The notes beneath the pieces are model-generated. The model did no database searches and had not been told where the DNA came from. It saw only the letters and a program-made list of their open reading frames with translations. Of a stretch of 54,816 nt of DNA, positions 34,706 to 44,745 are shown one piece after another (the stretch's first letter is position 1; every line of letters begins with the position of its first letter). The translations under genes and the position numbers were made by a program. The DNA comes from an uncultured bacterium (GTDB lineage Bacteria; Planctomycetota; Phycisphaerae; Phycisphaerales; SM1A02): the NCBI GenBank assembly GCA_903891095.1, contig CAITDI010000024.1, forward strand, positions 1-54,816, in the 5' to 3' direction.

Positions 34706-35503
34706 ATGTCCGCAACCCACGATCCGCAAGGGAAACCGCTCGCGCAGAGCCGTCCGTGGCTCACGGTCGCCGGCTGCCTCGGCGGCGGCATGATCGCGAT
34801 CGCGCTTGCGTTCGCACTGCTGATCGCGGCGGTCGTGGTGTTCGTGTTCTTTCCCGAGATCGTCGGCATGGGCAAGCCTGGTCCGACCGCGTTCATCAAC
34901 GCGATCGGCGAGCTGCGCAAGGCGCCGGCGCTGCGTGTCGGCACGCGCGAGATCGCCGTGCACGTCGACGCGTCCGTGCCGACCGAGACGACGATCCGCG
35001 CGTGGCTCGTGCCCGTCGGCCCCGGCTGGAAGGTCGAGGTCGGCCGCACCAAGGTGGATGTCTTCGCGCCAGGCAACACCGTGCAGTACATCGTGCCGCT
35101 CGAGATCGACGGCAAGAAGCTCGAGACGCCGGTGAAGTTCGGCCACGCGAAGCCGGATGGAACCGCGGGTGGCGCAGCCGACGACCAGATCTGGACCGTC
35201 ACGCTCCCGCCGCCGCGCGTCGACCAATCGCTCGTCGAGGTGCAGAGCGATCCGCGCAAGATCCGCATCGAGGTCGACCGCGACTGGGTCGATCATGTCG
35301 TGGGCGACGACAAGGCGAAGGAAGCCGCGCTGGCGTCGATCCGCGCGGCCGTCGTCAAGCAGGCGTCGAGCGAGACCGCGACCTTCGAGGTGCGCGAGAA
35401 GGGCCGCGCTGTCGTCGCCGACATGATTCGCGCGCTGCTGCCCGAGCAGTTCCGCGATCGGAGGATCGTCGTGCGCTGGTCCGACGAACCTGCGGCGGAT
35501 TGA
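34706..35503 (+). CDS. Membrane-anchored protein of unknown function
   Basis: The 265-residue product has one long hydrophobic segment (~residues 20-50, [20 protein letters not shown] and on) and a large soluble domain. The C-terminal part ([19 protein letters not shown] followed by [15 protein letters not shown]) is helical and weakly recalls DUF4230, but this is not certain. No catalytic motif is visible. Its stop is 25 nt before the first gene of the chemosensory operon, which has its own putative promoter box overlapping the gap, so a functional link is not implied. Confidence 0.65.
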
Positions 35504-35528: not shown

Positions 35529-37622
35529 ATGTCGCGCGCAGTCACATTTCGCAAGTCGCTTCTCGGTCGGAGCCTGCTCCTTGGCGTGCTGCCCGCAGCT
35601 GCCGTCGTGTTCGTGATCGTGGGCATCAACTCGTTCCGCGCCTGGAACAACGTGAACGCGCGCTTCGAGACCGACCTCCGCGCCGCGACCGAGCTGGCCG
35701 TCGGCGAGATCGACCTCCGCAACCAGCGCAACATCGACATGGCCAGGATCCTCGTCGCTTCGCAGGAAGCAGCGATGTTCGGCCGCCGCGCCGAGACGCT
35801 CGACATGCTCGAGAACGTGCTGCGCTCGAACCCGAGCATCTGCGGCACCTACGTCGCGTACGAGCCCGACGCCGACGGCGCCGATGCGCTCGGCGCGCAG
35901 GAAGGCGTGCCCGCCAACGCGCTTGGCGCGGGCGGCCGCTTCTTCGCGTATGTCAAGCGCGACGCGAAGTCGCCCGACGGCATCCAGATCGAGCCGCTCG
36001 TCGAGCCCGTCGGCGAGGATGGGCTCTGGTACCTGCTGCCCAAGGAGCGCGCGCAGCGTTCGGGCGTCGCCGATCCGGTGATCACCAAGCCGTACAACTA
36101 TCGCGGCGCCGACATCATCGAGCACGTGGTCCCGATCGTCGTGAAGGGCAAGTTCGTCGGCGTCGCAGGCGTCGACGTGGCGCTCACGGGCCTGCAGGAA
36201 CGGCTCAAGGACATCAGCCAGCGCCTCGGCGCGGATGTGTTCATCGAGACGCGCGGCTACTTCGTCGCGGCCACCACCGATGGCGAGAAGGGCACGAGCC
36301 TCCGCACCACCAGGGTCGCGGAATCGCTGCTTTCGCCCGTGTTTCGCGACATCGTGGTCCACGGATCCAGGCCGTGGGAGGCGATCGACCCGATCCTCCA
36401 CGAGGAGTGCGTGTATCTCGCGGCGACCGTGCCGACGGGCGAGTGGCGCGTGCTTGTTCGCAAGCCCACGCGCGTCGCCACGGAGGCGGTGACGACCACG
36501 ATCATCGGCAACGTGCGCACCGCGGTGATCGGCGTCGTCGTGATCCTCGTGCTGCTGTCGGTCGGCGCTGTCTCGATCAGCCGCCGCGTGCGCGCGGCCA
36601 AGGGCATCGCCGAGCGCATCGCCGGTGGCGATCTTTCCGGCGGAAGCGCCACGGCGCTCGAGTCGAAGGCCGCGACCGGCGCCGACGAAAGCGCCGAGCT
36701 CGTGCGCGCGATGCATCAGATGAACGACGAGCTCGTGTCGATCGTGTCCGCCGTCCGCGGCGCATGCGTGCGGCTCGCCGCCACGAGCGCGCAGCTCGCG
36801 GCCACCAGCCACGAGCAGCGGGCGACTGTCGGCGCGTTTGGCGAATCGACTTCGCAGATCGCCGCCGCGATCCGCGAGATCTCCGCGACGGGCATCGCGC
36901 TGCAGCGCACGATCGAATCGGTCGACGCAGGCGCACGGCGCGCGAGCGAGTCGGCGGCGAAGGGCCGCACGCGGCTCGATTCGGTGGCGTCGTCGATGTC
37001 GCGCCTCGATGTCGCGACCAGCGAGATCGCAGGTCGCCTCGAGATCATCGCCGAGAAGGCCGCCGCGATCGGCACCGTCGTCGTGACCATCACCAAGGTC
37101 GCCGAGCAGACGAACCTCCTCTCCGTCAACGCGGCGATCGAGGCCGAGAAGGCCGGCGACGCGGGCCTCGGATTCCTCGTGGTTGCCCGCGAAATCCGCC
37201 GTCTCGCCGACCAGACCGCGGGTGCGTCGCTCGACATCGAGCGCATCGTCGGACAGATGCAGTCGTCGGTCACCGCGGGCGTCGAGGAGATGTCGCGCTT
37301 TACCGGCGAGATGCGCACGGGCACGGGCGACGTCCAGCAGATCGTCGGCGACCTCGGCGGGATCATCGCGCAGATCGACGCGTCGTTCGCAAGCTTTGGC
37401 GAGGTGCGCTCGGGCATGACCACGCAGGCGATGGGCGTCTCGCAGATCGAGCAGGCGGTGATGCAGGTCGCCGCGGGCGCGCAGCAGTCGTCGCGCTCGG
37501 CGGTCGAGTTCGGCCGCGTGGCCGATGAACTCGCGCACGCAGTCGCGGTGCTGCAGGACGCGGCGGCGCGCTTCAAGCTGCGCGAGGAATCCGCGGCAAC
37601 GACCGAGGAAGGCGCCGCGTAA
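35529..37622 (+). CDS. wspA: Methyl-accepting receptor, WspA-like signalling part with a Cache-like sensor
   Basis: The 697-residue product has a first membrane helix (~14-36), a periplasmic domain of about 290 residues, a second helix (~330-352), a HAMP segment and a cytoplasmic signalling coil. The periplasmic part ends each half with patterns of a dCache domain ([38 protein letters not shown]). The coil's hairpin tip reads [20 protein letters not shown], then [15 protein letters not shown]. The AEKAG form is what I remember for Pseudomonas WspA, as are the following regions ([31 protein letters not shown]). Pseudomonas WspA has a much shorter sensor, so the input differs. It should form clusters in the membrane with the CheW-like and CheA-like proteins encoded downstream. 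Confidence 0.85.
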
Positions 37623-37637
37623 CGCGGGAACCACGCG

Positions 37638-38114
37638 ATGCACGTCCTCTTCACCATCGTCAACGAACGCCGCTTTGCGATCGATTGCGCGGAGATCATC
37701 GAGGTCCTGCCCGTGGTGTCGCATCGGCCCGCGGGCACGGGCCCCGCATGGCTGCTCGGCCTGATCAACGTGCGCGGCGAGCTGCTGCCGCTGGTCGACC
37801 TCTCGGTGATCGTCGACGGCAAGCCGACGCAGCCCAAGCTCGCATCGCGCATCGTGGTGCTGCGGCTCGAGACGGAGCTGTTCTCGTCGCAGGCGACCAA
37901 GGTCGGACTGCTCGTGCCCGAGATCGCGGGGCCTGTCATGCGCGACTTCGATGCGGCGGGAGTGCACGCGGGCTTTGCCTTCACGGGCGGCTCGCACCTC
38001 GGGCCGACCATCGCCGACGAGGACGGCATGGTGCAGCTGCTGCGCTGCCGCCGCATTCTCGAAGGCGACGCGGCGCTCAGGCAGCTGCCTGCGACCGCGT
38101 GGGAACAGCCGTGA
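37638..38114 (+). CDS. wspB: CheW-type coupling protein (WspB-like)
   Basis: The 158-residue product is a single CheW domain: MHVLFTIVNERRFAIDCAEI, IEVLPVVSHRPAGTGPAW, LLGLINVRGELLPLVDLSVI. It couples the receptor to the histidine kinase. The gene is 15 nt after wspA and overlaps the next gene by 4 nt (GTGA), so translation is probably coupled. Two different CheW-type genes in one cluster, separated by a CheR gene, is the Wsp arrangement (WspB and WspD). Confidence 0.85.
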   Translation: MHVLFTIVNERRFAIDCAEIIEVLPVVSHRPAGTGPAWLLGLINVRGELLPLVDLSVIVDGKPTQPKLASRIVVLRLETELFSSQATKVGLLVPEIAGPVMRDFDAAGVHAGFAFTGGSHLGPTIADEDGMVQLLRCRRILEGDAALRQLPATAWEQP

Positions 38115-39382
38115 GCGACCAGGCCGTCGCCGCCGCCGCCGATGCGCTCATCGCGCGGCTGTGCAGCGAGAGCGGCTTTACCACGGAACTCATCTCGCGC
38201 GAGCGACTGCTTGGGCATGTGCGTTCGCGCATGGGCGAGCTGCGCGCGAAGGACATCGTCGAGGTCTTCGCGCGCATCGCGAACGATCCGTCGGAGTACG
38301 CGCGCGTCGAGGGCGTCTTCGCGCCCGCCGAAACCTGGCTCTTTCGCTACCGCGAGTCGTTCGAGTTCATTCGTGCGTTTGCGGCTGCGCGTGGCGGGCG
38401 GCCGCTGCGCGTGCTCATCGCAGGCGCGGGCGGCTGGTGCGAGCCCGTGTCGGTCGCGGTCGCGATCGCGTCGGCCGGCAGCAGCGCGGCGATGGTGGTG
38501 TTCGACCGAAATCCCGCGGTCTTCGCGGGTCCGCAGCGATTCGAGGGCATGCATGTGCGCGGTGGCGTTCCCGACTGGGCGGAGCGGTTTCTGCCGAGCG
38601 ACGGAGATGCGCGCGTCGCAGATCCGCAGATCGGCAGCGCGATGCTGCTGCATGTCGGCGACGTCGCGCGCATCGGCGGCCGGCTTGTCGCGGATTCGGT
38701 GCGGTTCGACCTCGTGCTCTTTCGCAACGTCGCGATCTACATGAGCGAGGCGCCGCGCGCGGCCGCGTTTCGCACGCTGGCGGCGCTGCTCGTCAAGGAC
38801 GGCGCGCTGATGGTCGGTCACGCCGAGGTGCGCGCGGCGTGCGACGCGACGGGGTTCGTGCCGTCGACTTCGGCGGGCGCGTTCGCGGTGGTCGCGCCGA
38901 ACGCGCAGTCGCAGCCGCTGCCGAGCGCGGCCGATCTCGCGCGGCTTGCCGCTGCGGCTGAACCGCCTCAGCGGGCGGCGCAATCGCAGGGCTTTCAAGC
39001 GCATGGTCTTCAACCGCATGGTCTTCAACCCCATGGTTTGCCGCAGCAGAACATTCAACCGCACGCCTCGTCGCCGCAGCCCGAGCCGCGCTTTCCCGCG
39101 CCGCTGACCCCGGTCGATGCCGCGCGCGTCGCACTTCGCAAGTCGCCGACCGACATCGCGCTGCACCTCAGGCTCGCGCGCGAACTCGAGGCCGCCGGCC
39201 AGCTCGGTCCCGCGATGGACGCCGTCGTGCGGGCGATCTACCTCGACCGCAGTTGCGAGGAGGCGCTCGTCCTCGCTGCTCGGCTCGCCGACGAGCAGGG
39301 CCATCCCGCGGATGCCGAGCGATTTCGCATGAGAGCGTTGCGCGCGCACCTCGATCGCACGCGCGACGACGAAAACGCGTGA
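38111..39382 (+). CDS. wspC: CheR-type methyltransferase with TPR tail (WspC-like), unusual SAM motif
   Basis: The 423-residue product begins at a GTG overlapping the wspB stop. The CheR N-terminal helical part is followed by ETWLFRYRESFEFI, PLRVLIAGAGGWCEPVSVAVAI and VRFDLVLFRNVAIYMSEAPR. The last of these matches the FDxIxxRNvxiY motif of CheR. In the SAM-binding loop, the usual TGEEPYS is here GWCEPVS. A Gln/Pro linker with a 15-nt coding repeat (GLQPH) leads to a C-terminal TPR pair (IALHLRLARELEAAGQLGPA, AVVRAIYLDRSCEEALVLAA), as in WspC. It should methylate glutamates on the receptor, provided the altered loop still binds SAM. Confidence 0.82.
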   Translation: MSDQAVAAAADALIARLCSESGFTTELISRERLLGHVRSRMGELRAKDIVEVFARIANDPSEYARVEGVFAPAETWLFRYRESFEFIRAFAAARGGRPLRVLIAGAGGWCEPVSVAVAIASAGSSAAMVVFDRNPAVFAGPQRFEGMHVRGGVPDWAERFLPSDGDARVADPQIGSAMLLHVGDVARIGGRLVADSVRFDLVLFRNVAIYMSEAPRAAAFRTLAALLVKDGALMVGHAEVRAACDATGFVPSTSAGAFAVVAPNAQSQPLPSAADLARLAAAAEPPQRAAQSQGFQAHGLQPHGLQPHGLPQQNIQPHASSPQPEPRFPAPLTPVDAARVALRKSPTDIALHLRLARELEAAGQLGPAMDAVVRAIYLDRSCEEALVLAARLADEQGHPADAERFRMRALRAHLDRTRDDENA

Positions 39383-39401
39383 TACCCTGCAGGACGCGCG
39401 C

Positions 39402-40019
39402 ATGGAACAGCCCAAGCCCACCAATCAACCCCGCGGCGACGCCCACGCGCTGACGCAAGCGGACGACGCCAGCCTCGCGCGCATGCGCGCGCTGCTCGAC
39501 CGTCCGTTGCCCGCCGAGGACATCGCGGCCAACACCGTGCTCGTCGCCTCGAAGGGCGACGTCAAGCTCGGCCGGACGCGCAGCGTGCTGGTGTTCGTGG
39601 TCGGCGACGAGCGGCTCGCGCTCGACGCCGAGGCGACCCATCGCGTCGTGCCCGTCACGGCGATCCGCCGCGTGCCGCACCGCACGAACCGCGTCTTCGC
39701 GGGCATCGCGAACATTGCCGGCGAGCTGACGCTGGTCGCCAACATCGGCGCCGCCATCGGCATCGAGCAGGGCGCGCAGCAGACGCATTTCATCGTCATC
39801 GGCGATGCCGGCGCGCGCTGGGCGTTTGGCGCCGATCGCGTCGAGGGCGTGCGCCGCGTCGACGAGTCGACCGTGCTGCCCGCACCGACCACGGTGCGCC
39901 ACGCGGCCGACGGCTGCACGAAATCCTTGGTCCCGCTGATCGACGGCGATTCCGACGCGCTCATCCCCGTGTTTGATGCGAAGAAGTTGACGCAGCTGGT
40001 GGCAAGGAGCTTCGCGTGA
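39402..40019 (+). CDS. wspD: CheW-type coupling protein (WspD-like)
   Basis: The 205-residue product has an N-terminal extension (ASLARMRALLDRPLP) typical of WspD and a CheW domain: TRSVLVFVVGDERLALDAEA, VPHRTNRVFAGIANIAGELT, LVANIGAAIGI, and a C-terminal LVPLIDGDSDALIPVFD. The ATG follows a TACCCT box by 13 nt, without a good Shine-Dalgarno. The gene's last six codons are part of a tandem 20-nt repeat that also forms the next gene's start. Confidence 0.83.
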   Translation: MEQPKPTNQPRGDAHALTQADDASLARMRALLDRPLPAEDIAANTVLVASKGDVKLGRTRSVLVFVVGDERLALDAEATHRVVPVTAIRRVPHRTNRVFAGIANIAGELTLVANIGAAIGIEQGAQQTHFIVIGDAGARWAFGADRVEGVRRVDESTVLPAPTTVRHAADGCTKSLVPLIDGDSDALIPVFDAKKLTQLVARSFA

Positions 40020-40059
40020 TGAACAGGAGCTTCGCGTGAGAAATGGAAGGTTCGCGTGA
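40000..40059 (+). repeat. Three tandem 20-nt RBS/stop-start modules
   Basis: Copies at 40000-40019, 40020-40039 and 40040-40059 each contain a Shine-Dalgarno (AAGGAG, CAGGAG, GGAAGG), TTCGC and a GTGA stop-start overlap. Read from each GTG, two nested seven-codon ORFs (40016-40039 and 40036-40059) link the wspD stop to the wspE start. Confidence 0.85.
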
Positions 40060-42419
40060 GCGGCATGGGCGACCTTGGCGGCTTCTCGCTGCACGAACTC
40101 TTTCGCGGAGAGGCGGAGGCGCATGCCGCCGCGCTCAGCGAAGGCCTCGTCAAGCTCGAGGGCACCAGCGATCCTGCGACCGTCGAGCCGTTGATGCGCG
40201 CCGCGCACTCGATCAAGGGCGCCGCGCGCGTGATCGGCCTCGACATCGCCGTCAAGCTCTCGCATGCGATGGAGGACGTGCTCGTCGCCATGCAGAAGGG
40301 TCGCGAAACCATCGCGCCGTCGCGCATCGACCAGCTGCTCAAGGGCACCGACATGCTCGCGTCGCTCGCGCGCATCGACGAGGCGAGCGTCGCGAGCTGG
40401 ACTGCCGAGAACGATCCCGCGGTCGACGAACTCGTCGCGTTGCTGCGCGAGCTGCCGCCGGCGGGCGCGCCGAAGCCCGTCGCGGCCGCTCCGGTTGCGG
40501 CACCAGTTCCCGCGCCTGCGCCTGTTGTTGCGGCTCCCGTTGTTGCGGCGCCTGTCGTACCAGCGCCTGTCGTAGCGCCCGCTCCCGCACCCACGACCGC
40601 CGTGCAGAAGCCCGCGCCGCCGCAGCAAAGCATGCCCGCGCAGCCCGCCGCGCCCGCGGCGACGCGCGTCTCCAGCGTGCGCGTGACCGCGGAAAAACTC
40701 GACCGGCTCCTCCAGCTCGCGGGCGAGACGATGCTCGAGTCGCGCCGCCTCGGCGCGATCCGCGATGAAGCGATGGACCTCAAGCGTCAGCTCGTGCGCC
40801 TCGAGGACGAGCTCGATCGCGTGCGCGCCACCGTGCGCCGCGCGGGCCTCGATCCCGCGACGATCGCGCCCGCGCGCACGCTCGTCGACGGCGCTCGCGA
40901 TCGCGTGCTCGGACATCTCCTCACCGTCGAAGGCGCGATCCGCCGCGGCGAGGAGACATCGACGCAGCTCTATCACGAGGTGCTCTCGAGCCGCATGCGT
41001 CCGTTTGCCGACGCGACCAGCGCGCTCAGCCGCACGGTGCGCGACCTCGCGCGCCAGCTCGGCAAGGACGCGCGTCTCGAGATCGTCGGCGAATCCGTGC
41101 CCGTCGACCGCGACATCCTCGCGCGCCTCGATGCGCCGCTCAATCACCTGCTGCGCAACGCGCTTGACCACGGCATCGAGATGCCCGATGAACGCCGCAA
41201 CGCAGGCAAGGCCCCGCAGGCCACGCTGCGCGTCGAGGCGCGCCATCACGCAGGCATGCTGCGCATTCGCGTGAGCGACGACGGCCGCGGCATCGACCTC
41301 GAGGGCCTGCGCCAGCGCATCGTGCGCCGCTCGCTCGCGACGAGCGACATGGCGGCCGCGATGAACCGCCAGGAACTGCTCGAGTTCCTGTTCCTCCCGG
41401 GATTCTCGACCGCGCAGCAGGTCACGGAGATCTCGGGTCGCGGCGTTGGACTCGACGTCGTGCAGTCGACCGCGCGCGAGATCGGCGGCGTCGCGCGCAT
41501 CGAGACCGAGCTCGGCCGCGGCACGGTGTTCGAGCTCGAGCTGCCGATCACGCTGTCGGTCATGCGCGCGCTGCTCGTCGATGTCGCGGGTGAAACGCTG
41601 GCGTTCCCGCTCGCGCGCATCGATCGCGTCGTGCAGCCCGAGGCCGGCGCGATCCGCTCGGTCGAGGGCCGCAGCCAGTTCCTGCTCGACGGAACATCGG
41701 TCGGCGTCGTCGACGCGGCCGTCGTGCTCGCGCTCGCCACGGAGCGCCGCAAGGGCGAGCAGGAGCACATCGTCGTCCTCGGCTCGGGCGAGGAACGCTA
41801 CGGCTTCGCGGTCGACGGACTGTCGGGCGAAGAGGATCTCGTCGTCCGCGCGCTCGACACGCGCCTCGGCAAGGTCCCGCATCTCGCATCGAGCGCGGTG
41901 CGCGAGAGCGGCGAACCCGTGCTCATCGTCGATACCGAGGACATCCTGCAGTCGGTGCGCATCGCGCTCAGCGAAGGCCGCCTGCGCGGCGCGCGCAAGT
42001 CGCTCGAGTCGAGCAGCGTGGCTGCCAAGCGCGCGCTCGTCGTCGACGACTCCGCCACCGTGCGCGAGGTCGAGCGGCAGCTGCTCGTGCGCATGGGCTT
42101 CGTGGTCGAGACCGCGGTCGACGGCGTCGACGGCTGGAACACGCTGCGCGAAGGCCAGTTCGACCTGATCGTGAGCGACATCGACATGCCGCGCATGAAC
42201 GGCATCGAGTTCGTGCGCACGCTGCGCGGCGACGCGCGGTTCACGCGCATTCCCGTGATCGTCGTGAGCTACAAGGACCGCGAGGACGATCGCATCGCGG
42301 GCCTCGAGGCCGGCGCCACCGCGTACCTGACCAAGGGCGCGTTCCAGGACAGCACCTTCGCCGACACCGTGCGCGACCTCGTCGATGTCACGGGCTCCGC
42401 GCGCAGAGGCGCGTTTTGA
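40056..42419 (+). CDS. wspE: Hybrid histidine kinase CheA-REC (WspE-like)
   Basis: The 787-residue product has an Hpt domain with the phosphorylated His at ~51 (MRAAHSIKGAARVIG), an Ala/Pro-rich linker, and a dimerisation region with VRVTAEKLDRLLQLAGE. The kinase core has LNHLLRNALDHGIE (N box) and GRGVGLDVVQSTAREIGG (G box). A CheW-like domain (ALLVDVAGETLAFPLARIDR) and a C-terminal receiver (ALVVDDSATVREVE, LIVSDIDMPRMNG) follow. Kinase-receiver fusion is the WspE layout. It phosphorylates CheB and the response regulator. GTG at 40056 has GGAAGG 5 nt upstream; an ATG lies three codons later. Confidence 0.92.
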   Translation: MSGMGDLGGFSLHELFRGEAEAHAAALSEGLVKLEGTSDPATVEPLMRAAHSIKGAARVIGLDIAVKLSHAMEDVLVAMQKGRETIAPSRIDQLLKGTDMLASLARIDEASVASWTAENDPAVDELVALLRELPPAGAPKPVAAAPVAAPVPAPAPVVAAPVVAAPVVPAPVVAPAPAPTTAVQKPAPPQQSMPAQPAAPAATRVSSVRVTAEKLDRLLQLAGETMLESRRLGAIRDEAMDLKRQLVRLEDELDRVRATVRRAGLDPATIAPARTLVDGARDRVLGHLLTVEGAIRRGEETSTQLYHEVLSSRMRPFADATSALSRTVRDLARQLGKDARLEIVGESVPVDRDILARLDAPLNHLLRNALDHGIEMPDERRNAGKAPQATLRVEARHHAGMLRIRVSDDGRGIDLEGLRQRIVRRSLATSDMAAAMNRQELLEFLFLPGFSTAQQVTEISGRGVGLDVVQSTAREIGGVARIETELGRGTVFELELPITLSVMRALLVDVAGETLAFPLARIDRVVQPEAGAIRSVEGRSQFLLDGTSVGVVDAAVVLALATERRKGEQEHIVVLGSGEERYGFAVDGLSGEEDLVVRALDTRLGKVPHLASSAVRESGEPVLIVDTEDILQSVRIALSEGRLRGARKSLESSSVAAKRALVVDDSATVREVERQLLVRMGFVVETAVDGVDGWNTLREGQFDLIVSDIDMPRMNGIEFVRTLRGDARFTRIPVIVVSYKDREDDRIAGLEAGATAYLTKGAFQDSTFADTVRDLVDVTGSARRGAF

Positions 42420-43507
42420 AGATCGCGATCGTGAACGACCTCGCCGTCGCGTGCGAGGCGCTGCGCCGCGCGATCGCCGCGGATCCCGCGCTTTCCGTCG
42501 CGTGGATCGCGCGCGATGGCGACGAGGCCGTCGTGCAGGCCCAGCGCTCGAAGCCCGACCTGATCCTGATGGACCTCATCATGCCGCGCGTGAACGGCGT
42601 CGAGGCCACGCGCCAGATCATGCGCGTCGCGCCGTGCCCGATCCTCGTGGTGACCGCGACCGTGAGCGGCAACGCGGGCCTCGTGTACGAAGCGCTCGGC
42701 GCGGGCGCGCTCGACGCGGTCAACACGCCGACATTCGGTCCGGGCGCGAGCGTGCAGGGCAGCGACGATCTGCTTCGCCGCATCCATCTCATCGGCAAGC
42801 GAAGCGGTGTGTCGATGGCGCCGAAGGTCGCTGCTCCAGCGGTTCCACCGATCGCGCCGCGTGTGGTGACGGCGCAGCCGCAGCCGTTCGTCGCCCCGTC
42901 CATCGCTCCGTCCATCGCCCCGTCCATCCCGCGCACCGCGTCCGTCACTCCGCCGATCATCGCCATCGGCGCATCGACCGGCGGACCGCGCGCGATCGCG
43001 GATGTCCTTCGCGCGATGCCGCAGGACCTGCCCGCGGCGCTGCTCCTCGTGCAGCACGTGTCCGTGGACTTCGTGCGCGGATTCGCCGAGTGGCTCGCCG
43101 TCGAGACCAAGCGCCGCGTCGAGCTCTCGCGCCCGGGCTACGAGCCGCGCGCAGGCGACGTGATCATCGCCGGCGAAGACCGCCACATGACGCTCGGCGC
43201 GAATGGCCGCATCGAACACCGCGAGGAACCCTCGACGCAACTGCATCGTCCCGCAGTCGACGAGATGTTCGCATCGCTCGCCGCGAACGCGCGCCCGGGC
43301 GTCGCGGTCCTGCTCACGGGAATGGGCCGCGACGGCGCCGAGGGGCTGCTCAAGCTCCGACGCGCCGGCTGGCACACGATCGCGCAGGATGAAGGCACGA
43401 GCGTCGTGTGGGGCATGCCCGGCGCGGCGCACGCGCTCGGCGCGGCGGTGGAGACGCTTCCGCTTTCCGCGATCGGCGCGGCGGTGGCGGCGAGGATCAA
43501 GCGATAG
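42416..43507 (+). CDS. wspF: CheB-type methylesterase (WspF-like)
   Basis: The 363-residue product has a receiver starting MKIAIVNDLAVACEALRRAI with phospho-acceptor Asp53 (LILMDLIMP), closely like Pseudomonas WspF, including the ND in place of the usual DD. After an Ala/Pro/Ser linker with a 12-nt coding repeat (APSI), the CheB domain has the catalytic triad Ser187 (IGASTGG), His214 (VQHVS) and Asp306 (GMGRDG). It removes methyl groups from the receptor. Its TTG start overlaps the wspE stop (TTGA), with AGAGG upstream. Loss of WspF locks the Pseudomonas system on, so this is the likely adaptation brake. Confidence 0.9.
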   Translation: MKIAIVNDLAVACEALRRAIAADPALSVAWIARDGDEAVVQAQRSKPDLILMDLIMPRVNGVEATRQIMRVAPCPILVVTATVSGNAGLVYEALGAGALDAVNTPTFGPGASVQGSDDLLRRIHLIGKRSGVSMAPKVAAPAVPPIAPRVVTAQPQPFVAPSIAPSIAPSIPRTASVTPPIIAIGASTGGPRAIADVLRAMPQDLPAALLLVQHVSVDFVRGFAEWLAVETKRRVELSRPGYEPRAGDVIIAGEDRHMTLGANGRIEHREEPSTQLHRPAVDEMFASLAANARPGVAVLLTGMGRDGAEGLLKLRRAGWHTIAQDEGTSVVWGMPGAAHALGAAVETLPLSAIGAAVAARIKR

Positions 43508-43539
43508 CGCACCGCGCAGGCTGACTGAGGAGTCCAACC

Positions 43540-44745
43540 ATGAGCAATCCGATTGACACCATCGACCGCGTGCTTCTCGTCGACGACCAGGCGATCGTCG
43601 GCGAAGCAGTGCGCCGCATGATCGCCACGCAGGGCGCGTGCGAGTACCGCAGCGTGCAGGACCCGCTGCAGGCGCTTGCCATCGCCGCGGAGTTCAAGCC
43701 GACCGTGATCCTGCAGGACATCGAGATGCCCGGGCTCAACGGCCTCGATCTCCTGCCGCAGTACCGCGCGCATGAAACGCTGCGCGATGTGCCCGTGATC
43801 ATGCTCACCGGCAAGGAGGATCCCGCGGTCAAGGCCGACGCGTTCGGCCGCGGCGCGAGCGACTACCTCGTCAAGCTGCCCCATCCCGTCGAGCTCGTCG
43901 CGCGCATCCGCCATCACTCGCGCGGCTACCGCATGCAGCTCGAGCGCAACGCCGCGTACGACGCGCTGCGCGCAAGCGAGGAGCACATGAAGAGCGAGAT
44001 CAACCGCGCCGCCGCGTACGTGCGCTCGCTGCTCGATCCGCCGATGGACGGCACGGTGTGCGCGGACTGGCGCTTCATCCCCTGCGAATCGCTCGGTGGC
44101 GACGTGTTCGGCTACCACTGGATCGACGAGGACCATCTCGCCGCGTACGTGCTCGATGTGAGCGGCCACGGCGTCGGCCCCGCGCTCATGGGCGTGTCGG
44201 CGATGAACCTCATCCGCTCGGGCTCGCTCGAGAAGGACCAGATGCTCTCCCCGGCGCGCGTGCTGCAGGCACTCAACGCGGGCTTCTCGATGTCGCGTCA
44301 CGACGGCATGTACTTCACGATCTGGTACGGCGTGTACAACCGCCGCACGCGCGAACTCACGTGGGCCGGCGGCGGACATCCGCCGTCGTTCCTCATGCGC
44401 GGCCGCGAGGTCACGCCGCTGCCGTCGACGACATACATGGTCGGCGTGAGCGACGACTACGACGTGCCGACTGAGCGCGTCACGCTGATGCCCGGCGATC
44501 GGCTGTATCTCTTCTCGGACGGCGTGTTCGAACTGCACATGCAGGGCGGCGGCATCTGGGGCGTCGATCGCTTTGAGGATTTCATGCGCGCCACGCCGAC
44601 CGAAGGCATCCTCGACGCCGTCATCCGCGAGACATCGCGCGTGATGCTCGAAGGCCGCGGCGTGCCCGCGACCGATATCCCCGCCGAAGGCGTGACCGCC
44701 GGCTGGGACGACGATTTCTCACTCATCGAGTTGCGGTTCAACTAG
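43540..44745 (+). CDS. Response regulator with WspR-type receiver fused to SpoIIE/PP2C phosphatase
   Basis: The 401-residue product has GAGGAG before its ATG. Residues 1-135 are a receiver (VLLVDDQAIVGEAVRRMI, acceptor Asp60 in TVILQDIEMPGLNGLDLL, then DYLVKLPHPVELVARIRHHS) that matches the WspR receiver block for block. A coiled linker (AAYDALRASEEHMKSEINRA) follows, as in WspR. The output, however, is not GGDEF. Residues ~165-401 form a PP2C-type SpoIIE phosphatase: LGGDVFGYHW with the metal Asp188, VLDVSGHGVGPALM with Asp206, GDRLYLFSDGVFE and AGWDDDFSLIELRF. It should dephosphorylate a Ser/Thr target, such as a STAS-domain antagonist, when phosphorylated. No STAS or anti-sigma gene lies in this window. 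Confidence 0.9.
   Translation: MSNPIDTIDRVLLVDDQAIVGEAVRRMIATQGACEYRSVQDPLQALAIAAEFKPTVILQDIEMPGLNGLDLLPQYRAHETLRDVPVIMLTGKEDPAVKADAFGRGASDYLVKLPHPVELVARIRHHSRGYRMQLERNAAYDALRASEEHMKSEINRAAAYVRSLLDPPMDGTVCADWRFIPCESLGGDVFGYHWIDEDHLAAYVLDVSGHGVGPALMGVSAMNLIRSGSLEKDQMLSPARVLQALNAGFSMSRHDGMYFTIWYGVYNRRTRELTWAGGGHPPSFLMRGREVTPLPSTTYMVGVSDDYDVPTERVTLMPGDRLYLFSDGVFELHMQGGGIWGVDRFEDFMRATPTEGILDAVIRETSRVMLEGRGVPATDIPAEGVTAGWDDDFSLIELRFN

Follow-up and report, generated by a model that had tools for sequence, protein, structure and literature searches.

This work concerns a seven-gene chemosensory operon in a window of 54,816 nucleotides, the whole stretch of DNA that was analysed, from an uncultured bacterium of the Phycisphaerales (Planctomycetota; contig CAITDI010000024.1 of assembly GCA_903891095.1). 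Judged by its sequence, the operon is a Wsp-type (alternative cellular function, ACF) chemosensory pathway, and its last gene encodes a response regulator that joins a WspR-type receiver (REC) to a SpoIIE/PP2C phosphatase domain. We suggest with moderate confidence that the receiver gates the phosphatase and that the phosphatase acts on a partner switch formed by a STAS protein and an RsbW-type kinase. Loci, genomes and contigs are given below by our own handles (L, G and C numbers); the window's own genome is G000.

Wsp affinity of the operon

Seven open reading frames on one strand of the window (35529-44745) encode, in this order, a methyl-accepting chemotaxis protein (MCP), CheW, CheR, a second CheW, a hybrid CheA-REC, CheB and the REC-PP2C protein. 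They are separated by gaps of no more than 36 bp or overlap by 4 bp, and a single transcript is therefore likely. This gene order had been proposed in a sequence-only reading of the same DNA and is confirmed by the coordinates of the open reading frames and by Pfam. The motifs quoted in that reading are also present (the CheB receiver motif, ILQD, YLVKLP, LGGDVFG, LDVSGHG and WDDDFSL), with FSDG besides.

The complete wsp operon on a replicon of Burkholderia stagnalis (L127) was used as the yardstick. The CheA of the window is 49% identical to its counterpart over 584 aligned residues and the CheB 42%; the signalling part of the receptor is 42% identical to that of WspA (299 aligned residues, equal spans), and the last receiver is 53% identical to that of WspR over residues 11-150. 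Among the best 50 of 444 records in a plasmid collection, the top 20 CheAs are 46-50% identical to that of the window (about residues 208-776), and the next reach at most 33%. Three of these 20 were checked, L127, L241 (by its annotated gene order) and L240 (by its GGDEF regulator), and each comes with a GGDEF regulator. In a CheA tree of 86 rows, the family of the window stands with the Wsp CheAs and apart from the non-Wsp CheA root, with a value of 99 in the Shimodaira-Hasegawa-like approximate likelihood-ratio test (SH-aLRT), and a careful tree of 57 rows gives the same separation with support of 100/100. The receiver tree (107 rows, few columns) places the last receiver in a 74-row WspR-type clade (SH-aLRT 98) that excludes the receivers of CheA and CheB. 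The Wsp-type ancestry of the CheA is thus borne out by the drop in identity and by both CheA trees, and the WspR-type nature of the last receiver by its identity and its clade. An origin of either from an unrelated chemosensory class, an outcome that would have refuted the sequence-only reading, was considered and is rejected by the same identity drop and the CheA and receiver trees. No Wsp-specific NCBIfam family was found among the matches listed (up to 25 per protein).

The output domain of the response regulator

The sequence-only reading had placed a PP2C phosphatase where WspR has GGDEF, and it had expected the profile matches now obtained: the last product of the operon matches Response_reg (E 1.2e-21) and SpoIIE (E 3.8e-37) in Pfam, and GGDEF has no Pfam match in it. 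The metal-site aspartates were scored in the motifs GGD, DVSGHG, SDG and DD. Those of the first three motifs are invariant in 21 of 21 aligned REC-PP2C proteins and are also supported by the sequence alignment with PDB chains; the last pair is kept in all 20 rows that reach it, one row being cut by a contig end. The phosphorylation residues of the pathway are likewise intact in sequence.

By sequence, the nearest solved chains are Pseudomonas aeruginosa RssB, SpoIIE and SiaA. The structure model of the protein (mean predicted local distance difference test score 91.2, predicted template modelling score 0.71) contains one continuous helix, residues 116-164, which links the receiver to the phosphatase. 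Foldseek ranked full-length RssB (3f7a) first, with E 4.6e-26 and a template modelling (TM) score of 0.54-0.57, and placed 3bre and 3i5a at ranks 7 and 8 (TM 0.36-0.47). The entry 3i5a is titled as WspR of P. syringae (misspelt) and 3bre as PA3702, which we take to be WspR. As modelled, the protein is a WspR-like front end followed by an RssB-like back end.

The place of RssB as the closest solved structure by both sequence and fold raises the alternative that the REC-PP2C protein acts chiefly as a phosphorylation-controlled adaptor, like RssB in RpoS proteolysis, rather than as an enzyme. According to the available text of PMC12143880, RssB is an adaptor whose phosphatase domain is full-length and active. 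However, proteins from different phyla retain the metal-site aspartates, a sign that catalysis is probably under selection, and we consider a mainly adaptor role very unlikely here.

Conservation in related genomes

Matches to the REC-PP2C protein over nearly its full length, with at least 46% identity, are present in 29 of 101 genomes (own included), all of them in the window's own family. The sequence-only reading had proposed a survey of the operon in the Phycisphaerae. The REC-PP2C gene lies beside chemosensory genes in 24 of the 24 fetched related loci whose contig extends far enough; three further related contigs stop short of its position and are excluded from this count. Because the gene is present at every locus that reaches so far, its place at the operon is a conserved pattern and not chance. 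All seven genes were detected in 16 of these loci (tblastn, E 1e-5), and in the other eight at least one is missing, because it has diverged or been lost or because the contig ends too early. Among 150 genomes drawn from the class there were six CheA matches at E 1e-80, four of at least 49% identity (own genome counted) and two of 31-32%. In G148, a genome of another family from this survey, the REC-PP2C gene is divergent from the operon and is not its last gene. A reduced form occurs at L067 (G050), one of the eight incomplete loci, where only the CheA-REC and REC-PP2C genes are found, adjacent to each other, and the fetched stretch gave no match to the receptor, CheW, CheR or CheB.

RsbW-type and STAS genes linked to sister operons

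Named genomes were scanned with the CheA alignment, and the best 80 loci together with L127 (81 in all) were sorted by the receiver protein that comes first behind CheA, CheB not counted: 45 have a GGDEF output, 13 a PP2C output and 10 another output, and none was seen in 13. The 13 PP2C loci comprise seven Phycisphaerales/Planctomycetota records and six from elsewhere (Desulfovibrio sp., an uncultured Syntrophobacterales, an uncultured Acidobacteriaceae, a Sphingomonadales, bacterium SM23_31 and an uncultured bacterium). Nearly all of these records are metagenome-assembled genomes (MAGs), whose taxon name may stem from a wrong bin, and several named loci duplicate genomes of the related loci above (L128, for example, is the genome of L048), so the two sets are not additive.

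Partner genes were sought in these loci with a local profile seeded from a STAS/RsbW-type pair on contig C82 of the window's genome. Four PP2C loci, L140, L152, L166 and L173, have an RsbW-type kinase gene no more than 0.5 kb from the operon and in the same orientation, and Pfam confirms the domains of the linked RsbW-type and STAS genes. In L166 (bacterium SM23_31) the whole set is found in one place: CheB and REC-PP2C are followed by the kinase gene 108 bp on and the STAS gene 31 bp further. In L140 the adjoining STAS and kinase genes stand directly ahead of the receptor gene. In L173 there is a 17-bp overlap between the kinase and receptor genes, and a STAS gene lies nearby on the other strand. 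The link is looser for the STAS gene of L152, which is on the opposite strand and about 5.6 kb upstream of the gene for the receptor; the kinase gene there is about 450 bp behind the regulator.

Both genes are thus present in 4 of the 6 non-Phycisphaeral PP2C loci, compared with 0 of 45 GGDEF loci, 0 of 10 with another output and 0 of 13 with none seen. Fisher's test gives p 6e-5 without the Phycisphaeral loci and 0.0017 with them, values which are a guide only, as the split was made after seeing the data and related genomes are not independent. Twelve of the 45 GGDEF loci extend less than 8 kb before or less than 4 kb after CheA; among the PP2C loci, L148 ends at the regulator and could not show a pair behind it, and no pair was seen in L145. 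The partner-switching output suggested in the sequence-only reading gains support from the four sister operons that carry linked RsbW-type and STAS genes.

In two Methylococcaceae-like MAGs, a REC-PP2C gene on the minus strand (L147:2613-4309 and L165:3076-4287) is divergent from a wsp operon with GGDEF output; in L147, a STAS gene lies 59 bp behind it and is likewise divergent from the operon. Each of these MAGs therefore has two outputs at a single site.

Proposed mechanism and its alternatives

We consider the following overall mechanism likely. A Cache-type receptor, tuned by CheR/CheB methylation, would set the autokinase activity of the hybrid CheA, and CheA would pass phosphate to the WspR-type receiver of the REC-PP2C protein. 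Phosphorylation of the receiver would probably order or dimerise the long linker helix and so turn the phosphatase on, as has been proposed for RsbU and RssB (available text of PMC12143880). The phosphatase would dephosphorylate a Ser/Thr-phosphorylated STAS protein, which would then capture an RsbW-type kinase and free the kinase's other partner. We infer the phosphotransfer, the way in which phosphorylation activates the phosphatase, the identity of the substrate and all later steps.

The window's genome has one HATPase_c_2 match over the cut-off, and its gene adjoins a STAS gene on C82. The STAS protein has a serine pair at what we take to be the expected phosphoserine position, by comparison with SpoIIAA. 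These two C82 genes are the one clear RsbW/STAS pair of the genome and encode the best candidate partner of the REC-PP2C protein; since the pair is unlinked to the operon and near-universal in the order, we infer its role as the target. The search for STAS/RsbW partners proposed in the sequence-only reading gave an unlinked pair in the own genome and linked genes at four sister operons, and none near the Phycisphaeral operons examined. Pairs of the C82 type also occur at L121-L125; in most cases the gene of a long protein (about 1000 aa) precedes the pair.

Several observations weigh against this mechanism. In the Phycisphaerales, neither partner gene was found near the operon in any of the seven named PP2C loci or of 25 related loci (L046-L070). 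C82-type STAS genes are present in 93 and RsbW genes in 95 of 101 relatives, with the operon present or absent, and co-occurrence is therefore rejected as evidence of a link between the operon and C82; PF13581 is found in 101 of 101 genomes and is uninformative. Neither C82-type gene was matched in the operon-bearing genomes G015 (95% complete) and G007 (82%), and no STAS match was found in G020 (96%), which also bears the operon. The own genome has four SpoIIE matches, one of which is that of the window, so three other PP2C proteins could serve the C82 pair. In the PP2C-domain tree, these three fall outside the operon group (SH-aLRT 86), and receiver-less PP2C proteins of relatives (L115, L116 and L126) nest among the operon phosphatases, which means that phosphatases of this type also exist apart from the operon. 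Moreover, P. aeruginosa RssB, which has the same architecture, is also a proteolysis adaptor, according to the available text of PMC12143880.

It is also conceivable that the phosphatase acts on other Ser/Thr-phosphorylated proteins, such as substrates of eukaryotic-like kinases, rather than on a STAS switch. This alternative would fit the Phycisphaeral loci examined, in which no linked partner was found, and a C82 pair that belongs to the core of the order whether or not a genome has the operon. However, the domain is of the SpoIIE/RsbU kind by Pfam and by fold, STAS proteins are the substrates of most characterised phosphatases of this kind, and four sister operons have RsbW-type and STAS genes close by; we therefore regard other substrates as unlikely and prefer partner switching.

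The sequence-only reading had further set the PP2C output against c-di-GMP signalling, and this part is not borne out, because the genome contains a WspR-type REC-GAF-HD-GYP regulator (C103), a predicted c-di-GMP phosphodiesterase, and three GGDEF matches. A branched pathway, in which CheA would also phosphorylate the regulators on C103 and C66 and c-di-GMP would be broken down beside the phosphatase output, is therefore possible. The receivers of these two regulators are 44% (C103) and 57% (C66) identical to that of the operon and belong to the WspR-type clade. Nevertheless, both regulators are unlinked, kinship of receivers is no proof of a shared kinase, and the genome holds a second, different CheA, so that such a branch seems to us possible but less likely than not. 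The output of the C66 regulator, an FAD/NAD(P) oxidoreductase, is unusual; receivers of 56% identity also occur in G001, G008 and G014.

Sensor type of the receptors

The 27 receptors of PP2C operons that were scanned all match MCPsignal; 14 match MCP-like_PDC_1, 8 dCache_1 and 3 Cache_3-Cache_2 (matches may overlap), whereas 4HB, CHASE3 and TarH gave no match in any of them at E 1e-4. The 31 receptors from 29 GGDEF loci gave 25 matches to 4HB_MCP_1, 3 to CHASE3 and 3 to TarH (again with possible overlap), and none to Cache families. Sensor type therefore tracks output type in this sample, although the distribution of each is also phylogenetic. The usual ligands of Cache domains are small extracellular molecules, and the surface sensing of the Wsp system should for this reason not be carried over to the operon. 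The surface or envelope sensing suggested in the sequence-only reading is accordingly not supported, with Cache-type sensors in the PP2C operons and four-helix-bundle families in 0 of 27 receptors.

Which output is older

The description of the PP2C domain as standing "instead of" GGDEF holds for the output itself but may have the direction backwards. The GGDEF operons of the careful CheA tree, 20 in number, fall together with one histidine-kinase operon in a single nested clade (100/100, 21 rows); the Phycisphaerales PP2C operons (14 rows, 99/99) and six further PP2C operons lie outside it. The receiver tree nests most GGDEF receivers in the same way; those of the Methylococcaceae L147 and L165 fall apart from the rest, and the GGDEF output may for this reason have been gained more than once. 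From these trees we favour GGDEF as the derived output. Three points weigh against this: the sequences were chosen for their similarity to those of the window, a single PP2C clade is not rejected, and the Wsp tree has an unsure base, because a tree constrained to "Phycisphaerales plus outgroup" was slightly better than the free-search tree in the approximately unbiased (AU) test.

We put forward tentatively, at somewhat less than even confidence, that a chain from receptor array through CheA and a receiver-PP2C protein to STAS/RsbW was early and spread over several phyla, and that the GGDEF of WspR and the class III cyclases came later, when the output domain was exchanged while the receiver and helix in front of it were conserved. 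The opposite view, that the PP2C output replaced WspR and is not an old state of Wsp-type pathways, draws on the same unsure base and on the AU test, in which a single PP2C clade is not rejected (p 0.06), so that one late fusion spread by transfer would be possible. However, several PP2C lineages lie outside the nested GGDEF clade of the CheA tree and most GGDEF receivers are nested too, and we think such a replacement possible but questionable.

Outputs of other kinds were found as well. Six of the ten "other" regulators were scanned, of which five are REC-class III cyclases and one is a REC-histidine kinase. REC-class III nucleotide cyclase regulators occur in cyanobacterial and myxococcal Wsp-type operons (L138, L141, L143, L144, L198 and L200); in L200, which is also one of the ten, the REC-cyclase regulator comes first and a REC-PP2C gene next.

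Further features of the operon and its genome

The CheR gene is taken to start at the GTG that overlaps the stop of the first CheW gene. CheR keeps the arginine of TWLFR, the aspartate of the S-adenosylmethionine (SAM) site and the RNxxIY motif. Its TPR part is weakly matched, the best match being TPR_19 at E 0.004 and all TPR matches lying below the curated Pfam cut-offs. The SAM-site motif of CheR is altered (GGWCEP in place of STGEEP, with the arginine and aspartate motifs kept), and CheR is among the least conserved proteins of the operon (38-44% identity over most of its length in same-genus loci). The gene of a 265-aa protein upstream of the receptor gene possibly shares the operon transcript; a match to this protein stands upstream of the receptor in 9 same-genus loci. 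The coordinates are collected in Table 1.

Table 1. Genes of the operon, its upstream neighbour and candidate partners or regulators elsewhere in the same genome
Feature	Position	Strand	Basis
265-aa protein, 25 bp upstream of receptor gene	34706..35503	+	no Pfam match
Chemoreceptor, WspA position: PDC/Cache-type sensor and MCP signalling domain	35529..37622	+	Pfam MCPsignal, MCP-like_PDC_1
CheW, WspB position	37638..38114	+	Pfam CheW E 1.4e-17
CheR methyltransferase, WspC position, short TPR-like C-terminus	38111..39382	+	Pfam CheR, SAM domain only, E 2.1e-10
Second CheW, WspD position	39402..40019	+	Pfam CheW E 1.2e-15
Hybrid CheA-REC, WspE position	40056..42419	+	Pfam Hpt, HATPase_c, CheW, Response_reg
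CheB methylesterase, WspF position, IVND-type receiver	42416..43507	+	Pfam Response_reg, CheB_methylest; NCBIfam NF009206 over cut-off
Response regulator: WspR-type receiver, 49-residue helix, SpoIIE/PP2C domain	43540..44745	+	Pfam, alignment, structure model
STAS/RsbW-type pair region	L072:1666-5751 (G000:C82)		profile matches
REC-FAD/NAD(P) oxidoreductase (NAD_binding_9)	L109:5360-7216 (G000:C66)		domain scan
REC-GAF-HD-GYP, predicted c-di-GMP phosphodiesterase	L110:4654-6315 (G000:C103)	-	domain scan

Comparison with known systems

The same well-studied sensory front end seems to serve several kinds of cellular response, and the operon family is a natural experiment in output swapping: its kinase and receiver, all of one type, are joined to a diguanylate cyclase, a PP2C phosphatase, a class III cyclase or a histidine kinase. 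With receivers and linkers that match and outputs that differ, the family allows a direct test of the linker-activation proposal. The pathway would tie methylation-adapted receptor arrays to partner switching, and uncultured Planctomycetota gain a concrete pathway to assay.

The occurrence of REC-PP2C proteins in chemosensory clusters is already published, and the operon described here is a real, conserved variant. A REC fused to a Ser/Thr phosphatase of family 2C was reported in 2012 among the regulators of ACF clusters with CheR-TPR (available text of Munoz-Martinez et al., PMC3447774), as in the last protein of the operon here; the main text of that paper has no occurrence of SpoIIE, Planctomyc, RsbW, STAS, RsbU, anti-sigma or partner switch. 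Among the papers listed by a literature search, with subscription journals mostly outside it, none by its title and start of abstract ties a Wsp-type or other chemosensory pathway to RsbW/STAS partner switching; one of them, PMC9239204, contains the words chemosensory, SpoIIE and STAS.

The operon shares with the Wsp system of Pseudomonas and Burkholderia (WspABCDEFR) the gene order, the hybrid CheA, the WspF-like CheB, the receptor signalling domain and the WspR-type receiver, but its output is PP2C instead of GGDEF and its sensor is of the Cache type, whereas that of WspA is a four-helix bundle. The REC-helix-PP2C arrangement is that of RssB of the P. aeruginosa RssB/RssC system (PDB 3EQ2 and 3F7A), which is not known to be encoded in a chemosensory operon. 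The two proteins are only about 24% identical in the fold alignment, and RssB serves RpoS proteolysis; its operon also includes an rsbV homologue, according to the available text of PMC12143880. The RsbM-RsbK-RsbY-RsbV-RsbW system of Bacillus cereus is a functional parallel, in which a methyltransferase-tuned histidine kinase acts through a receiver-phosphatase that dephosphorylates RsbV. However, as far as the available text of PMC9912610 goes, B. cereus uses a single hybrid kinase, without an array of receptor, CheW and CheA, and its output is sigma-B.

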